From Planctomycetia bacterium (lineage in GTDB: Bacteria > Planctomycetota > Planctomycetia > Gemmatales > Gemmataceae), in the NCBI GenBank assembly GCA_005808665.1, contig SYLG01000033.1, positions 1 to 43,202 of the forward strand: 43,202 nt of DNA, read 5' to 3'. The notes beneath the pieces are model-generated. The model saw only the letters and a list, made by a program, of their open reading frames with translations. It was not told where the DNA came from and did no database searches. A program made the translations under genes and the position numbers. Of the stretch, positions 9,801 to 26,887 are shown piece by piece (positions within the stretch are counted from its first letter, which is position 1; each line of letters begins with the position of its first letter).

Positions 9801-12800
9801 ATGGGTGCCGGGAAGGACAAGAGACCCCTGATCAAGATTTCCCCCACCAACCTTCATTAGGGAAACCGTTCCTGCATTTTTCCCATTGAGAATGGAAACC
9901 CCATCGAGGAGGAGATAATTTGCGGAGGGGTTGGTTATCGAAATGGAGGGCGAGTAGGCGGAAAGGGTGGCGGTCCCCTCCAGGCTTCCCGCCTTCACCA
10001 GGACATTTCCACCCTGGGCGACCAGTCCCGAAAGTTGGAGGGCAGCGACGGGTGTGTTGGACACCGAAGTGCTTAAAATGGCGGCGGTTGCGGGATCGGT
10101 CACGCTGCTGGTATTGGGGAGGTAGTTGGTGTTGTAGGCGGCCTGGAAGGGAAAAAACACCTGGCCGGGGAGGACCGGTACCACCTGATTCGGGGAAAGG
10201 GTCTGATGGACAAAGGTGGTATGATTGGCAAGGGGTATCGATGGTCCACCATTGATCGTCAAAGCGTCTCCTGAATCATTGACCAAAATATCCAATTGGT
10301 AAGCGACCCCGGCCTCCACGGTCCCCCCGAGGGTCGCGCTGCTGGAATTGTTCAAAACATCAAAGGTGTCCGAATGGATGAAATTACGGTCATATTGGGT
10401 GCGCCAGTAGGTTGTTCCTGTATTGTTCCCCGGATTGGCCCCCAGATAGAGGTTGCCTCCACTTTGGATGGTCGAGGAGTTACCTACTGAAAGATTGGCA
10501 TTGGCACCGAGGTAGCAATCCTCGGTGGAGGCAAGCGGAATATCAATGAGGCCCCGCGTCCTTGCATACGCTAAAGCCAAGGTGTTTACACTCGATGTTT
10601 GGCCATTGAGGGGGTTTTCTCCGGCAACGATCGACACGGTTCCCAAACCGAAAATCGTGGTATTGGTCCCTGATTGAACCGATTGGTTGACTGTCCAATT
10701 ACTGGTAGCCGAACTGGTGGCGTTGCCTCCCAGACCCCAAGTTGTGGTGGAGGCACTGGTGGAGGCATTGATAAAGACAAGGGTTCCAATGGCGATGGAG
10801 CCCGCCGTTGCGACGATACTTACATCCTCGCCAATCGAAACGCTTGTGGTTACGGTTGCCGTTTGCGAAGTATTGTTCCAATCGAGTGAAACAAGCAGAC
10901 CACCCGTGGCCAGGTTGGCATTTTCCTGCATTTGGGCCGTTTGGGTCGCCAGGATCGAGATACCCGAGGAGGCACCCCCTACGATTCCGTTGGAATGGAT
11001 CGACACCCCATCCGCGATCGTTACGGTGCTAACCGGGTTGAAATTGGTGGTGATGCTGCCGCCATACCCGGTCAAAACACCGCCCGCCCCAACCCGTACC
11101 ATGTAGCCATCCACATCGTTACCGAGGGTAGCCCGTTGAAACTGGTTCTGTGAAGCAATATCGATCGGGCCGGTGGAGGTTAGGGTGGTGCCACTATTGA
11201 GGGCGACTGTGGCGCTTGGGCTTGAGCTATTGACGACAACGGTTCCCCCACCCCCTGCCAGGTTGACATTGACCGAATCGGCATAGGCATCATAGGTCAT
11301 GGTGGTAACTGCCTGAACCGTGATGCTACCCGCGTTGATTGTGCTGGAACCAATCGACAAACTTGCATTGGGTGAATTGGTCGTCTCCGCCCTGGAGGCC
11401 TCACCACTAATACGGCCTCCCGATCCTGCCATCGCCTGGGCGGTGTTGGAACCACTAACCGTTGCGGAAACGGACAGCCTTCCTTCTGCAACAAAATCCA
11501 CATGGGAAAGGGTTGTCGTGATGGTCGGCGTAAAAGTGGATTGGGCCTGGTACACCCCGACGCCCAACCCGGAAATCGTGTAACTGGTTTGGGCGGGAGA
11601 GTTGGGGTCCTGGCCACTATCCCGGGCCATTGCCGTGGTGTTGCACTGGGCGTTGATGGTTGCGTTGCCATCCACGGTGAGCGGGACGGGAGTTGCGCTG
11701 GTTCCGATGATGTTTGCGGCGATGGTTTCGCTGTAGGTCAGTTGATGGGTTTCGCCGGTCCCGGCTAATCCACCGATGGTTATCGAATATCCATCCGAGG
11801 TGATCGTATGATTGCCGGTCGCCTGGAGGAGGAGATCTCCCACGGCAATCGACCCGGCGTTTGCGATTTGGGCCGTGGAGCTGCCATCACAAATCGTATC
11901 CGACATAAAAACGCCAATGGAGCCTAGCCCGCCGGCCCCGCCAAAAATTTGGGCCAGGAGGGTGTCCTGGCTAAAGGAACCAACGGTCAAGTCCCCATAA
12001 TCAACGCCTGGATTTCCCGTTTGAAGAGTGGATCCACTATCGACGGAAGCAAGGAAGGTGGAAGAATCGGTGATGTTGGAATTGCCTCCCGCCCCAGCCA
12101 CACCAAGGGAAACCGACACGGCTGTGGGAACCGACATGGTGGAAAGGGAACTATTGCCGGTAGCTTCCACAGAAACACCAGTGCCGGTGGTGGAGACCGT
12201 GGCTCCACGAATCAAAGCCTCCACTGTATCCGTAGTCGTGATTTCGGCAAGGGAAATGCCAAGGGAGCCGCCAGCCTCACCCACGGACAGGGCCCCCGCC
12301 CCTACCGAAGCGTTTAATGTGGATTCTTCCAGGGCGGCGACGGTTATCCCATCGGCGCCCTGGTCATTACCGGACCCCATTTGGGTCAAGATGGAGGTCA
12401 GGTTGGTCCCATACAAAAGCCCAGCCATTACAGTGTTTTCCGTGGTTATGGCAGCGGAGGCTCCTCCCCCGGAAAGAGCCGCCCCATCGCCGGCCGCAAC
12501 ACTCACCGCCACAGCGACTACCGTCGCATTGACTGTTTGGTCGGAGGTAGCCTCTACCACAATTGGAACCGAAGCAAGGATCGTGGTCGGGCTGGAAGGA
12601 TTGGTAGAGGTTGAGCCAATAAAAGCTTCAACCGTATTTCCGATGGTAATTTTGCCGATGGCGGAACTGGGAGCCAGGGCAATCGCTGCGGAACCGACAG
12701 AAACGGCAAGGCTCCCTGCCCCACTACTAACCTGGTAGCTGGATTGATCCAAGGCGGAGACGGTTAGCGTTTCTTCGGCCGTACCGTTCACGGTTGTGGT

Positions 12801-23116: not shown

Positions 23117-23395
23117 TCAGGCTTGGGGGGAATCATCAAACTTGGGAGCCGAGGCAGCAACTCTTTGAGGCGGTTTGGGAGATTCGGAGGCACTTGGTTC
23201 CGAACGGGACAAACTGCCTACATCCACATCATCTTCAATCCCTTTGATTCCTTTTTTGAATTCCACGATGGACTTGCCCAAATAGCGGCCCACATCAGGA
23301 AGCTTGCGCCCGAAAATCACAATCCCAACCACCAAAATGATGACCCATTCCATGCCTTGGGGCAAAAAATTCAAAAATGCGAAAAGGCTGCTCAT
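23117..23395 (-). CDS. tatA: Sec-independent translocase subunit TatA/TatE
   Basis: The 92-residue product has the TatA layout. One N-terminal membrane helix (about residues 15-28, MEWVIILVVGIVIFG) is followed by the hinge FGRKLPDVGRYLGKS and an amphipathic helix with FKKGIKGIEDD. A polar Ser/Pro-rich tail ends the protein. TatA oligomerises to pass folded twin-arginine substrates through the inner membrane. The N terminus is about 14 residues longer than usual; an internal Met15 would give the standard length, but AGGA lies about 8 bases before the first ATG. No tatB or tatC is nearby. Confidence 0.9.
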   Translation of the reverse strand: MSSLFAFLNFLPQGMEWVIILVVGIVIFGRKLPDVGRYLGKSIVEFKKGIKGIEDDVDVGSLSRSEPSASESPKPPQRVAASAPKFDDSPQA

Positions 23396-23436
23396 TATGG
23401 AATTCCTGGGTGGGGCGAGCTGGGGAATCGACCGTT

Positions 23437-23445
23437 ATTATCGCA
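23437..23445 (-). promoter_or_regulatory. Possible extended -10 element for tatA
   Basis: On the minus strand, TGC directly precedes GATAAT (23,442-23,437), forming an extended -10 about 42 bases before the tatA ATG. I see no good -35 hexamer at the right distance. Confidence 0.3.
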
Positions 23446-23505
23446 TTCCCTCGATTGGTATTCTATCACCGGGCCTACTGCTTCGACAAGCATTGCCAAA
23501 GGTTA

Positions 23506-23517
23506 GGGGCTAGCCCC
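23506..23517 (-). terminator. Palindromic hairpin after the phosphatase-family gene
   Basis: GGGGCTAGCCCC is a perfect 12-base palindrome just beyond the stop at 23,535. On the minus strand it is preceded by GGCCCCTTTTGTTT, giving two alternative GC-rich stems. There is no T run after it, so termination is inferred. Confidence 0.35.
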
Positions 23518-23534
23518 AAACAAAAGGGGCCAAA

Positions 23535-24680
23535 TTAGTCCGGCAAAATCCGCAATTTCACCCCAACCGGCAAATGATCGCTGGCACCTCGGGCCCCTTT
23601 GTGTTTTTCGGATCCAAAGGCCAAGGGGTGCCCTTTTTTGTTGACATTGGGGGGATACCGCAATACATGCTGGGATTCTGGCACCACCCCCCACCCTTTG
23701 TGATCAAGCATACCGGGTGAAACGGCAATTTGGTCAAATTGGTACCAGGATCCGGAATAGTAGTGGGTGCCTGGTTGGCCAAGGCGAAAGCTGCCAAACA
23801 GGTTCAGAAGGGAACCCATTTGAGGTTTTTGTGCGAAAAGCTCCTGAGGAGTTTCGACCGCCCTTAGGTGGTCCCGAACGCTTGGTTCATCGGGATTATC
23901 GTTGAAATCGCCGCAAACCAGGAGATCCGCCGTGGGGTTGGCCATCAATATGGCCCGAACTTGACCATGGATTTGATCACCATATTTGGCTCTCCCTGTA
24001 CCCTCTTTGTCGGAAACTCTCGAGGTCCAATGACTTACCACCAGAATCAGGGGGGCTTTGTCCTTCCCGGTTGGATTTTGCACCTCGGTTTTGAGAATTC
24101 GAAGTCGTTTTCCCCAAAGTTGGGTTCGAAACCCGCTTAGGGGAATCCGGGAGAGGACCGCAGTCATGATAGCCCGCCCCCCTTCCGGATCTTTTTGTTG
24201 AATGTGGTGGTACATCGTTGCCTGGGCAGGCAGGTTCTGATTGAGCTTGTCTCTTAAAGCCTCCACCGAGCGGGACCCGGTTTCGACCTCGGCCAAACCC
24301 AGGATATCAGGTCCCCGACCTTCGTTTTCCATGAGAAGGACCTGGGCAAGGTGGTCCAGTTTTTCTCGAAAAAGGGCAGGATTTTGGGAGAACAGCCGGT
24401 CGTAGGGGGCATCGGCTGTTCCGTTGTGGTGGTTCAGTTGGTCATCAAAAAAGTTTTCCACATTCCAAAAGACGAAAGATATATCGGGATATTTCTCTGT
24501 ATTTAAAGCCACCTTGTCGGATTCTGGTCCCTGAGAGGGGCCATTGGGTTCAGCTGGAGGTTTGGGGGTGCAACCCACCAAGGCAAGGACAAGGAACAGG
24601 CCGACCCACCAAGGTTGAGGTTGATCCCGACGCCCGAGTTGGTTATTGCCAAACCAGGATTGGGCAAGGAGTATGGTCAT
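23535..24680 (-). CDS. Lipoprotein endonuclease/exonuclease/phosphatase family enzyme
   Basis: The product has about 381 residues from the ATG at 24,680, with GAGGT six bases upstream. It starts with a hydrophobic segment ending in the lipobox ALVGC (Cys37), so it is predicted to be a lipoprotein outside the cytoplasm. The body has the family's active-site motifs in order: FWNVENFFDD (metal-binding Asn), LAEVE (catalytic Glu), CGDFNDNP (Asp/Asn pair) and SDHLPVG (final Asp-His). Members cleave phosphodiester or phosphomonoester bonds in nucleic acids, lipids or inositol phosphates; the substrate here is unknown. An upstream in-frame ATG at 24,734 would put a charged stretch before the signal and is less likely. 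Its start codon shares bases with that of the divergent gene on the plus strand. Confidence 0.8.
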   Translation of the reverse strand: MTILLAQSWFGNNQLGRRDQPQPWWVGLFLVLALVGCTPKPPAEPNGPSQGPESDKVALNTEKYPDISFVFWNVENFFDDQLNHHNGTADAPYDRLFSQNPALFREKLDHLAQVLLMENEGRGPDILGLAEVETGSRSVEALRDKLNQNLPAQATMYHHIQQKDPEGGRAIMTAVLSRIPLSGFRTQLWGKRLRILKTEVQNPTGKDKAPLILVVSHWTSRVSDKEGTGRAKYGDQIHGQVRAILMANPTADLLVCGDFNDNPDEPSVRDHLRAVETPQELFAQKPQMGSLLNLFGSFRLGQPGTHYYSGSWYQFDQIAVSPGMLDHKGWGVVPESQHVLRYPPNVNKKGHPLAFGSEKHKGARGASDHLPVGVKLRILPD

Positions 24681-25458
24681 GCGAGACCTCGGTCGGATGG
24701 GCTGGTTGTTTTTGGGGCTTGTCCTTGGAATCACAGGGGCCTCTTTCGCCTATTATGTGGTGCCCCAGCGGGCACTTGGGGCCAACGACCGACACGAGGA
24801 CTATGTCCTTTGTACGGGGCCGGTTTTGGTGAACCCACGGATTCCAAGTGATGGAATCTGGCTTTTGGATTATCGCACCGGTCGTCTCATGGGTACAGTC
24901 ATAGATCACCTTGCCGGCACGATTGCGGGGTGGGCCGAGGTGGACCTGGTCAAAGAGTTTGAAATCGCACCCCGGACCAATGTCCATTTTCTCATGACCT
25001 GTGGGGTTATCAACAACGGTCAATCCGCCCTTTATGTTGCGGAGACCCAAACCGGGAAATTTGCGGTTTACACCATGGGAATCCGGCCTGATAACCAATC
25101 CGGCATGATGATCATGCGTCATTCGATTTCCAGTTTTCGGGCCACCGGTGGTCCCGCCAATCCCAACATGGTAATGCCAACCGCGGGCATTCAACCCAAG
25201 GGTATGAATCTTCCGGGTGTATTTCCGGCAACCCAACCCGGGGTCGCCCTTCCGGGAAACAACCTGGTAAGGCCCGGTTTCATGCCTGGAATTAACGGTG
25301 TCTTTCCCGGTGCAAAACAAAATCCCACCATGGTGCCTTTGGGGGGACCGGCTGCCGGCAATCCCTCAGTCAATCCGGAACCCAATGGCCCGGCTGGTCC
25401 AGCAGGGACCAACCCTAATGCGGGGCCCTTGCCCGGACCGGATGCCCCTATGAAATAG
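24679..25458 (+). CDS. Membrane-anchored protein with Pro/Gly-rich tail, unknown function
   Basis: The product has about 259 residues from the ATG at 24,679, which follows AAGGAG with seven bases of spacing. A single N-terminal membrane helix (WLFLGLVLGITGASFAYYV) comes first. A compact domain of about 100 residues follows, containing DGIWLLDYRTGRLMGTVID and ALYVAETQTGKFAVYTMG; these look like beta-strand pairs of the type 'value shown to the user, then compared', but I cannot name the family. The last 110 residues are almost entirely Pro, Gly, Asn and Ala, likely an extended linker. Two earlier in-frame ATGs (24,646 and 24,673) lack a usable ribosome site. I do not recognise a function. Confidence 0.65.
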   Translation: MRDLGRMGWLFLGLVLGITGASFAYYVVPQRALGANDRHEDYVLCTGPVLVNPRIPSDGIWLLDYRTGRLMGTVIDHLAGTIAGWAEVDLVKEFEIAPRTNVHFLMTCGVINNGQSALYVAETQTGKFAVYTMGIRPDNQSGMMIMRHSISSFRATGGPANPNMVMPTAGIQPKGMNLPGVFPATQPGVALPGNNLVRPGFMPGINGVFPGAKQNPTMVPLGGPAAGNPSVNPEPNGPAGPAGTNPNAGPLPGPDAPMK

Positions 25459-25511
25459 CCTTCATGTCCTGGAAGGAATGGTTCCCACAGGTCTTGACAG
25501 GATTTCTTCAT

Positions 25512-25535
25512 GGGGTTTGTATTTCAACAAACTCC
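25512..25535 (+). terminator. Probable rho-independent terminator
   Basis: GGGGTTTGT pairs with ACAAACTCC (nine pairs including one G-T) around a six-base loop. A CTTTTTTC run follows about 13 bases later. It sits 54 bases after the stop of the plus-strand gene and just before the convergent DUF1015 gene. Confidence 0.45.
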
Positions 25536-25561
25536 CATCCCTCGCCTTTTTTCAAACCAGC

Positions 25562-26887
25562 TTAACGCAAGGGATTGAGCACCAGCCCGCTTAACACTTT
25601 GGGATAGAAATAGGTGGATTTGGGAGGCATCTTTTCGTTATTTGAGGCAATTTCGGCTACATGGTCCATCTCGCAGGGCGGAACCAAGGCCGATAGGTCG
25701 CACCCCTGGGGCCCATTGGTGTGGACGGCAGGAACCGCTTCCTGATCCTCATGAACATAGCGGAATTTCAGACCCCCGCCGGGAGCAAGCAGGTCCAGTA
25801 CCAGACGATGCAGGATGCTCACGCCAAGCGACTGCCACTCGGGCGTGTGTTCGGGCACACGCCTGGCAAGCTCCTCAACGCCTTCGGGTTTGAGTCGTAG
25901 CAAGGTCCAATTGCCATCGGCCCTGGTTCCAAGGGCAATGATGTCTTGTGAACCATCCTCGGTAATGCGCCGCCATGCCGCAAAACCCGCTTCATTGCCG
26001 GCACCCACCCTTTCGATGTGGAAATAGGGCGATAGCTTGGTGGCCAAGGTAGCAGCATCCAGGCCGGGTAAGCCATCCACCAGGCGATGGGTCGGCATGA
26101 TGGTCAAGCCTGGGTCCCCCATGGAAACCAGCAGCATGAGGATAAAGCGTTGGGGGGCATTTTCATCCCGGGCTTCCCCCGCAAGGAGAGCCTCCTCGAG
26201 ATATCTGCAACCTGTTTCATAGCGATGGTGGCCATCGGCAATAAACACAGGAAGGTTGCAAAGTGTGGCTTGGGCAGCTTGAATGGCCGACACATCGGTA
26301 ATGGCCCAAATGCGACTGGTAACGCCAAGGTGATCGGTGGCTTCGATAGGAGGCGACTGCCTTGTGACATGTTCAAGAGCGGTAATAACCGAATTCTCCT
26401 GGTCGGGATAGAGGCCAAAAATGGGACTTAGGTTTGTCGATGTGGCTTTGTAAAGGCTAAGGCGATCGGCCTTTGGCCCTGCATGGGTTTCCTCGTGAGC
26501 ATAGATTTTTCCTGTGCCAAAGGGTTCCAGCCTTACCCTTGCCATAAAACCTTTGCGGGTGTGGGTTTTTTCGCCAACCCTATAGGTCTGTTCGACGAGG
26601 TATATCGACGGGCGGGTTTCGGTCACCAGAATATCTTCCCTGATCCACTCCCGCATGATTTGGGCGGCCCGGGTGTAGCGGTTGCTTTGTTCATCGTCGG
26701 CGGGCTGCTCCGGTTGAAGTTCCAGACGAACAATGTTGAAGGGGGACATTTCCAGCAAACGGCGTTGCAATGCCGGATCGATCACATCATAAGGCGGGCA
26801 AACCACATGGCTGAGCATTCCCACTTGGGCCAGATTGAATCGCAGGGCACGAAAGGCTTGAATATCCGCCATCTGAGCATTCTCCAT
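25562..26887 (-). CDS. DUF1015 family protein
   Basis: The 441-residue product matches the DUF1015 family along its whole length. The signature VVCPPYDVIDP is near residue 30, followed by NIVRLELQPE, YLVEQTY, GKIYAHEETHAGPKADRLSL, the conserved FIADGHHRYETG core, and a C-terminal FRYVHE segment. The family is widespread in bacteria and usually found as a single gene; its biochemical role is poorly defined. No membrane segment or signal peptide is visible, so it should be cytosolic. It is divergent from the yggS gene across a 112-base gap. Confidence 0.85.
   Translation of the reverse strand: MENAQMADIQAFRALRFNLAQVGMLSHVVCPPYDVIDPALQRRLLEMSPFNIVRLELQPEQPADDEQSNRYTRAAQIMREWIREDILVTETRPSIYLVEQTYRVGEKTHTRKGFMARVRLEPFGTGKIYAHEETHAGPKADRLSLYKATSTNLSPIFGLYPDQENSVITALEHVTRQSPPIEATDHLGVTSRIWAITDVSAIQAAQATLCNLPVFIADGHHRYETGCRYLEEALLAGEARDENAPQRFILMLLVSMGDPGLTIMPTHRLVDGLPGLDAATLATKLSPYFHIERVGAGNEAGFAAWRRITEDGSQDIIALGTRADGNWTLLRLKPEGVEELARRVPEHTPEWQSLGVSILHRLVLDLLAPGGGLKFRYVHEDQEAVPAVHTNGPQGCDLSALVPPCEMDHVAEIASNNEKMPPKSTYFYPKVLSGLVLNPLR

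Follow-up and report, generated by a model that had tools for sequence, protein, structure and literature searches.

A minimal divergent overlap of two start codons in a Gemmataceae genome and its probable recent origin

Two neighboring genes that run in opposite directions and start within the same four nucleotides raise the question of how such a layout arises and whether the genes control one another. We addressed this for a pair in the window, a 43,202-nt stretch that makes up one whole contig (G000:C185) of a 4.48-Mb, 186-contig Gemmataceae genome. Here, the CATG at 24678-24681 contains both the ATG of the minus-strand gene EEP (24680-24678) and the ATG of the plus-strand gene MEMB (24679-24681), as a sequence-only reading of the locus had proposed. 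The two coding genes therefore lie head to head and overlap by 2 nt. The surrounding sequence (24666-24690), AAGGAGTATGGTCATGCGAGACCTC, has a single occurrence in the genome. Enumeration with ATG, GTG and TTG starts indicates that, among divergent overlaps of 1 to 5 nt, just the lengths 1 and 2 nt are possible, and that CATG is the sole possible 2-nt overlap.

A rare layout with two plausible ribosome sites

Each start codon has a plausible ribosome site, as had been claimed from the sequence. MEMB is served by AAGGAG (24666-24671, plus strand), which ends 7 nt before its ATG and lies inside EEP codons, while EEP is served by GAGGT (24686-24690, minus strand), which lies 5 nt before its ATG and corresponds on the other strand to MEMB codons 3-4 (GAC CTC). 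A span of about 25 nt holds both sites.

Both genes are coding and conserved: of 59 related genomes, 21 have a match to EEP and 51 a match to MEMB. EEP (23535-24680, minus strand, 381 aa) encodes a lipoprotein with an endonuclease/exonuclease/phosphatase domain that matches the Pfam families PF19580 (Exo_endo_phos_3; E 5.5e-26) and PF03372 (E 8.2e-12); a lipobox-like LVGC with Cys37 was recognized by eye, and comparison with PDB sequences gave no match at E <= 0.001. MEMB (24679-25458, plus strand, 259 aa) encodes an uncharacterized membrane-anchored protein with a predicted N-terminal helix (residues 2-27) and a predicted beta-rich domain, followed by a Pro/Gly-rich tail seen by eye. AlphaFold2 modeled residues 1-154 with a mean pLDDT of 77. 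As a PDB fold search with these residues found nothing at E <= 0.001, only weak beta-propeller resemblances, we assign no function to MEMB. Searches of MEMB against Pfam and NCBIfam gave no match; the family is widespread among the related genomes, yet has no model in either collection.

To place the overlap among other divergent pairs, we ran a crude, home-made gene caller, which combines a Markov model with Shine-Dalgarno matches, on 101 stretches of the genome including the window (1.605 Mb in total) and obtained 994 genes. Among the called pairs, 139 were divergent, 143 convergent and 615 same-strand, and EEP/MEMB was the only one of the 139 divergent pairs whose gap fell in the range from -2 to 47 nt. 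Three divergent overlaps were called (-201, -92 and -2 nt, the last being EEP/MEMB); the next smallest gap was 48 nt, with a median gap of 240 nt. The 201-nt overlap (stretch L186) looks like a start error, as the aconitase domain begins only at residue 99. In the 92-nt case (L102), a CATG at 12400-12403 would be common to both genes if a later ATG of the plus-strand gene were used; GGAGG precedes the called start.

Divergent overlaps are also strongly under-represented in a published survey of 58 species, which counted 331 of them, compared with 12,737 overlaps in the codirectional and 1,890 in the convergent orientation (PMC2174442). In 274 of these divergent cases the overlap measures 5 nt or more, and subtracting Table 3 of that survey from its Table 2 leaves about 57 shorter than 5 nt, all in phase (123:213), a figure that we derived from rounded percentages. 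By our own derivation from these counts, a genome would be expected to contain about one overlap of this kind. Like any 2-nt CATG overlap, EEP/MEMB shares this phase, in which position 1 of the plus-strand codon is opposite position 2 of the minus-strand codon. The main text of the survey does not mention CATG, and we found no single case described there; in contrast to that survey, the origin of the present overlap can be traced through three members of the genus and eight relatives. EEP/MEMB belongs to a minimal type of overlap that is already on record, and it is rare in this genome.

A probably young overlap in an old gene pair

Conservation in relatives had been suggested as a check on the arrangement, and the comparison upheld it within the genus. 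The two starts touch in all three genus genomes: the exact CATG is present in the window and in the Baikal metagenome-assembled genome (MAG), and CATTATG, with a 1-nt gap, in the MoE MAG, where the EEP ATG is displaced by one codon. The ribosome sites are kept along with the starts. MEMB has AGGGAG at unchanged spacing in MoE, and all three genomes retain the GAGGT of EEP, at a distance of 8 nt from the displaced ATG in MoE.

Outside the genus the picture differs. By coordinates, EEP and MEMB are head to head in 11 of the 21 genomes with EEP, and all eight head-to-head loci of the family outside the genus have a spacer of about 114-640 nt between the best-supported starts, which we chose from listed codons and Shine-Dalgarno matches (least clearly for L070, L078 and L089). 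As the starts touch in the genus while all eight other loci have spacers, the overlap appears to be derived: the head-to-head pair would be old and the overlap young. Of the two starts, that of MEMB is, judging by the alignment, the older, with MKDL (L062) and MKDA (L072) matching the MRDL of the window. In EEP, the lipobox Cys is residue 37 or 39 in the genus versus about 19-30 in relatives with a recognizable lipobox (counted by eye).

These data are best explained, with a probability of about 0.72, by a minimal 2-nt divergent overlap that formed recently, on the stem lineage of the genus, within an old head-to-head pair whose genes are probably transcribed separately, the complementarity of their 5' ends being a by-product. 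In the ancestor, a spacer of some 110 nt or more would have separated EEP from MEMB. Loss of this spacer, combined with recruitment of an ATG that faces the MEMB start, would have given EEP a longer N-terminus, which now would cross the MEMB leader and Shine-Dalgarno site, with the EEP Shine-Dalgarno site formed by the complement of MEMB codons 3-4. MEMB would then probably be transcribed from control DNA within the EEP leader codons, and EEP probably from a promoter within the 5' coding region of MEMB, such that the two 5' ends would be partly complementary as a side effect. Elongation at the 5' end has been put forward as a possible origin of divergent overlaps (PMC2716372), and EEP/MEMB resembles that route in that one gene seems to have moved its start upstream, to where the opposite gene begins, but differs in that the spacer also shrank. 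With spacers in the relatives and none in one genus, the pair offers a clean case of divergent-overlap formation.

EEP codons 2-25 (24605-24677, minus strand), which form an N-terminal extension in front of the signal-peptide core, have no excess of third-position changes within the genus: between the window and MoE, 13/25, 8/24 and 6/24 sites differ at positions 1, 2 and 3. The corresponding changes in MEMB codons 2-25 are 6, 1 and 10 of 24. The linker after the EEP lipobox likewise has no third-position signal, which makes this test a weak one. Within the fast-changing EEP leader, a 14-nt run, TTGAGGTTGATCCC (24615-24628, plus strand), is invariant in the three genus genomes and is a candidate for MEMB control DNA. 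Where all three genomes agree on an EEP residue, they also share the codon in 7 of 8 cases within the first 25 alignment columns, versus 83 of 236 beyond them (p 0.004 in a one-sided Fisher test, the best of four cuts tried). From these three genomes we infer that the EEP leader is under constraint as DNA, most simply as the promoter and leader of MEMB lying beneath a tolerant EEP N-terminus. The extension thus seems to be molded by its neighbor's leader more than by its own protein. Raised synonymous conservation in the first MEMB codons was not significant in the same three genomes (best p 0.056) and so lends no positive support to an EEP promoter there.

Promoters and possible mutual control

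The sequence-only reading held that each promoter must lie inside the other gene and that the complementary message ends suggest mutual regulation. The first part stands for MEMB, as its promoter inside EEP follows directly from the layout of the starts; for EEP, a promoter inside MEMB is likely but not forced, since read-through from the DUF1015 gene is possible in the window. A sigma-70 consensus scan of 23500-26500 gave 1 site versus 1.7 expected, nothing beyond chance, and an expectation-maximization search of 199 upstream regions, aimed at a two-box motif (log-likelihood about 0), learned no promoter motif for the genome; because neither search found anything, we claim no promoter. We also set aside TTGATC-N17-TATTGC near 24621-24649, a candidate seen by eye only. 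A possible EEP promoter that we weighed is a 17-nt stretch of MEMB (24802-24818) that does not vary among the three genus genomes and is longer than any other such stretch in their alignment; its codons specify the conserved YVLCTG motif, for which relatives use other codons.

Could the two genes nonetheless regulate one another? With promoters in the opposite gene and 5' ends complementary over both ribosome sites, they might act like an excludon, in which strong expression of one gene would silence the other through RNA pairing, RNase III cutting or polymerase collision. The closeness of the ribosome sites means that any overlapping messages would span both, the touching starts recur in all three genus genomes, and a long 5'-UTR overlap is among the layouts in a review of excludons (PMC7154746). 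EEP/MEMB shares with those systems neighboring opposite genes whose messages may overlap; it differs in that no long UTR or antisense transcript is known for it. Against this reading, the layout is limited to one genus while the eight other family pairs have spacers, we found no functional link between the two proteins, and the exact CATG is not fixed even within the genus. As a hypothesis, mutual control is reasonable and of a type already known; nothing specific supports it here, and we consider it rather unlikely, at odds of about one to seven; dedicated control of this kind is probably absent. If the two messages truly pair, the locus would provide a simple natural test of control through complementary 5' ends.

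The possible read-through from DUF1015 (25562-26887, minus strand) leads to a second alternative, a noncontiguous operon, in which one long minus-strand message would run from DUF1015 through the antisense of MEMB and carry EEP and TatA, leaving EEP without a promoter inside MEMB. DUF1015, EEP and TatA are indeed all on the minus strand with MEMB inserted on the plus strand, the same layout has been described for the menaquinone genes of Staphylococcus aureus (PMC7154746), and the hairpin that follows DUF1015 in the window (-11.6 kcal/mol) has no T-rich tail. Both genus relatives, however, have terminator-like hairpins: at the corresponding place in Baikal, one of -23.3 kcal/mol with the tail TTGTGTTT, and in MoE a bidirectional one after MEMB (-14.1 kcal/mol on the EEP strand). 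The neighbors also differ in MoE, where DUF1015 is unlinked. We regard such a shared message as improbable, and separate transcription of the two genes as the better account.

Choice of start codons and gene neighborhood

The overlap depends on the start codons assigned to both genes. For MEMB, a second in-frame ATG, overlooked in the sequence-only reading, lies two codons upstream at 24673 (ATGGTCATG). As this ATG is just 1 nt from AAGGAG and is missing in MoE, 24679 is the better start; the MEMB alignment of the window and four named loci also begins at the Met of 24679.

Other candidate starts of EEP are the in-frame GTG at 24734, which has GAGG at 5 nt and would extend the overlap to 56 nt, and a TTG/GTG at codons 34-35, use of which would remove the signal peptide. 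If EEP began at GTG 24734 or at an unrecognized downstream codon, the two genes would have no start codons in common. The GTG at 24734 is present in all three genus genomes, and the amino-acid sequence of the EEP leader is weakly conserved, so that a different, non-standard start is conceivable. Between codon 1 and codon 34 of EEP, which covers the region up to the signal core, the window has no ATG, GTG or TTG; Baikal has none up to codon 42. In MoE, the codon homologous to the EEP ATG is ATA, yet the very next codon is an ATG. The GAGG of the GTG is missing in MoE, in contrast to the GAGGT of the ATG, and the GTG faces conserved MEMB codons, so its conservation requires no function in EEP. 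These observations make 24680 the most likely EEP start and a misassigned one improbable, to much the same degree as the long minus-strand message. Least probable of all is a genus-specific either/or switch, in which leaders complementary over both start sites would let one envelope protein be made at a time.

The wider neighborhood was compared in 40 of the 50 other genomes with a MEMB match, the 10 omitted being weak class-level matches. TatA adjoins EEP on the minus strand in the window (23117-24680 region), and a TatA on the EEP side, on the strand opposite to MEMB, was found in 8 of 41 stretches. In L063, L065 and L079, TatA is on the opposite strand close to MEMB, with no EEP detected between them; the MEMB-TatA neighborhood may, on this pattern, be older than EEP's place in it. 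On the MoE contig (L059), the EEP side also carries two copies of a porin-like OprP neighbor.
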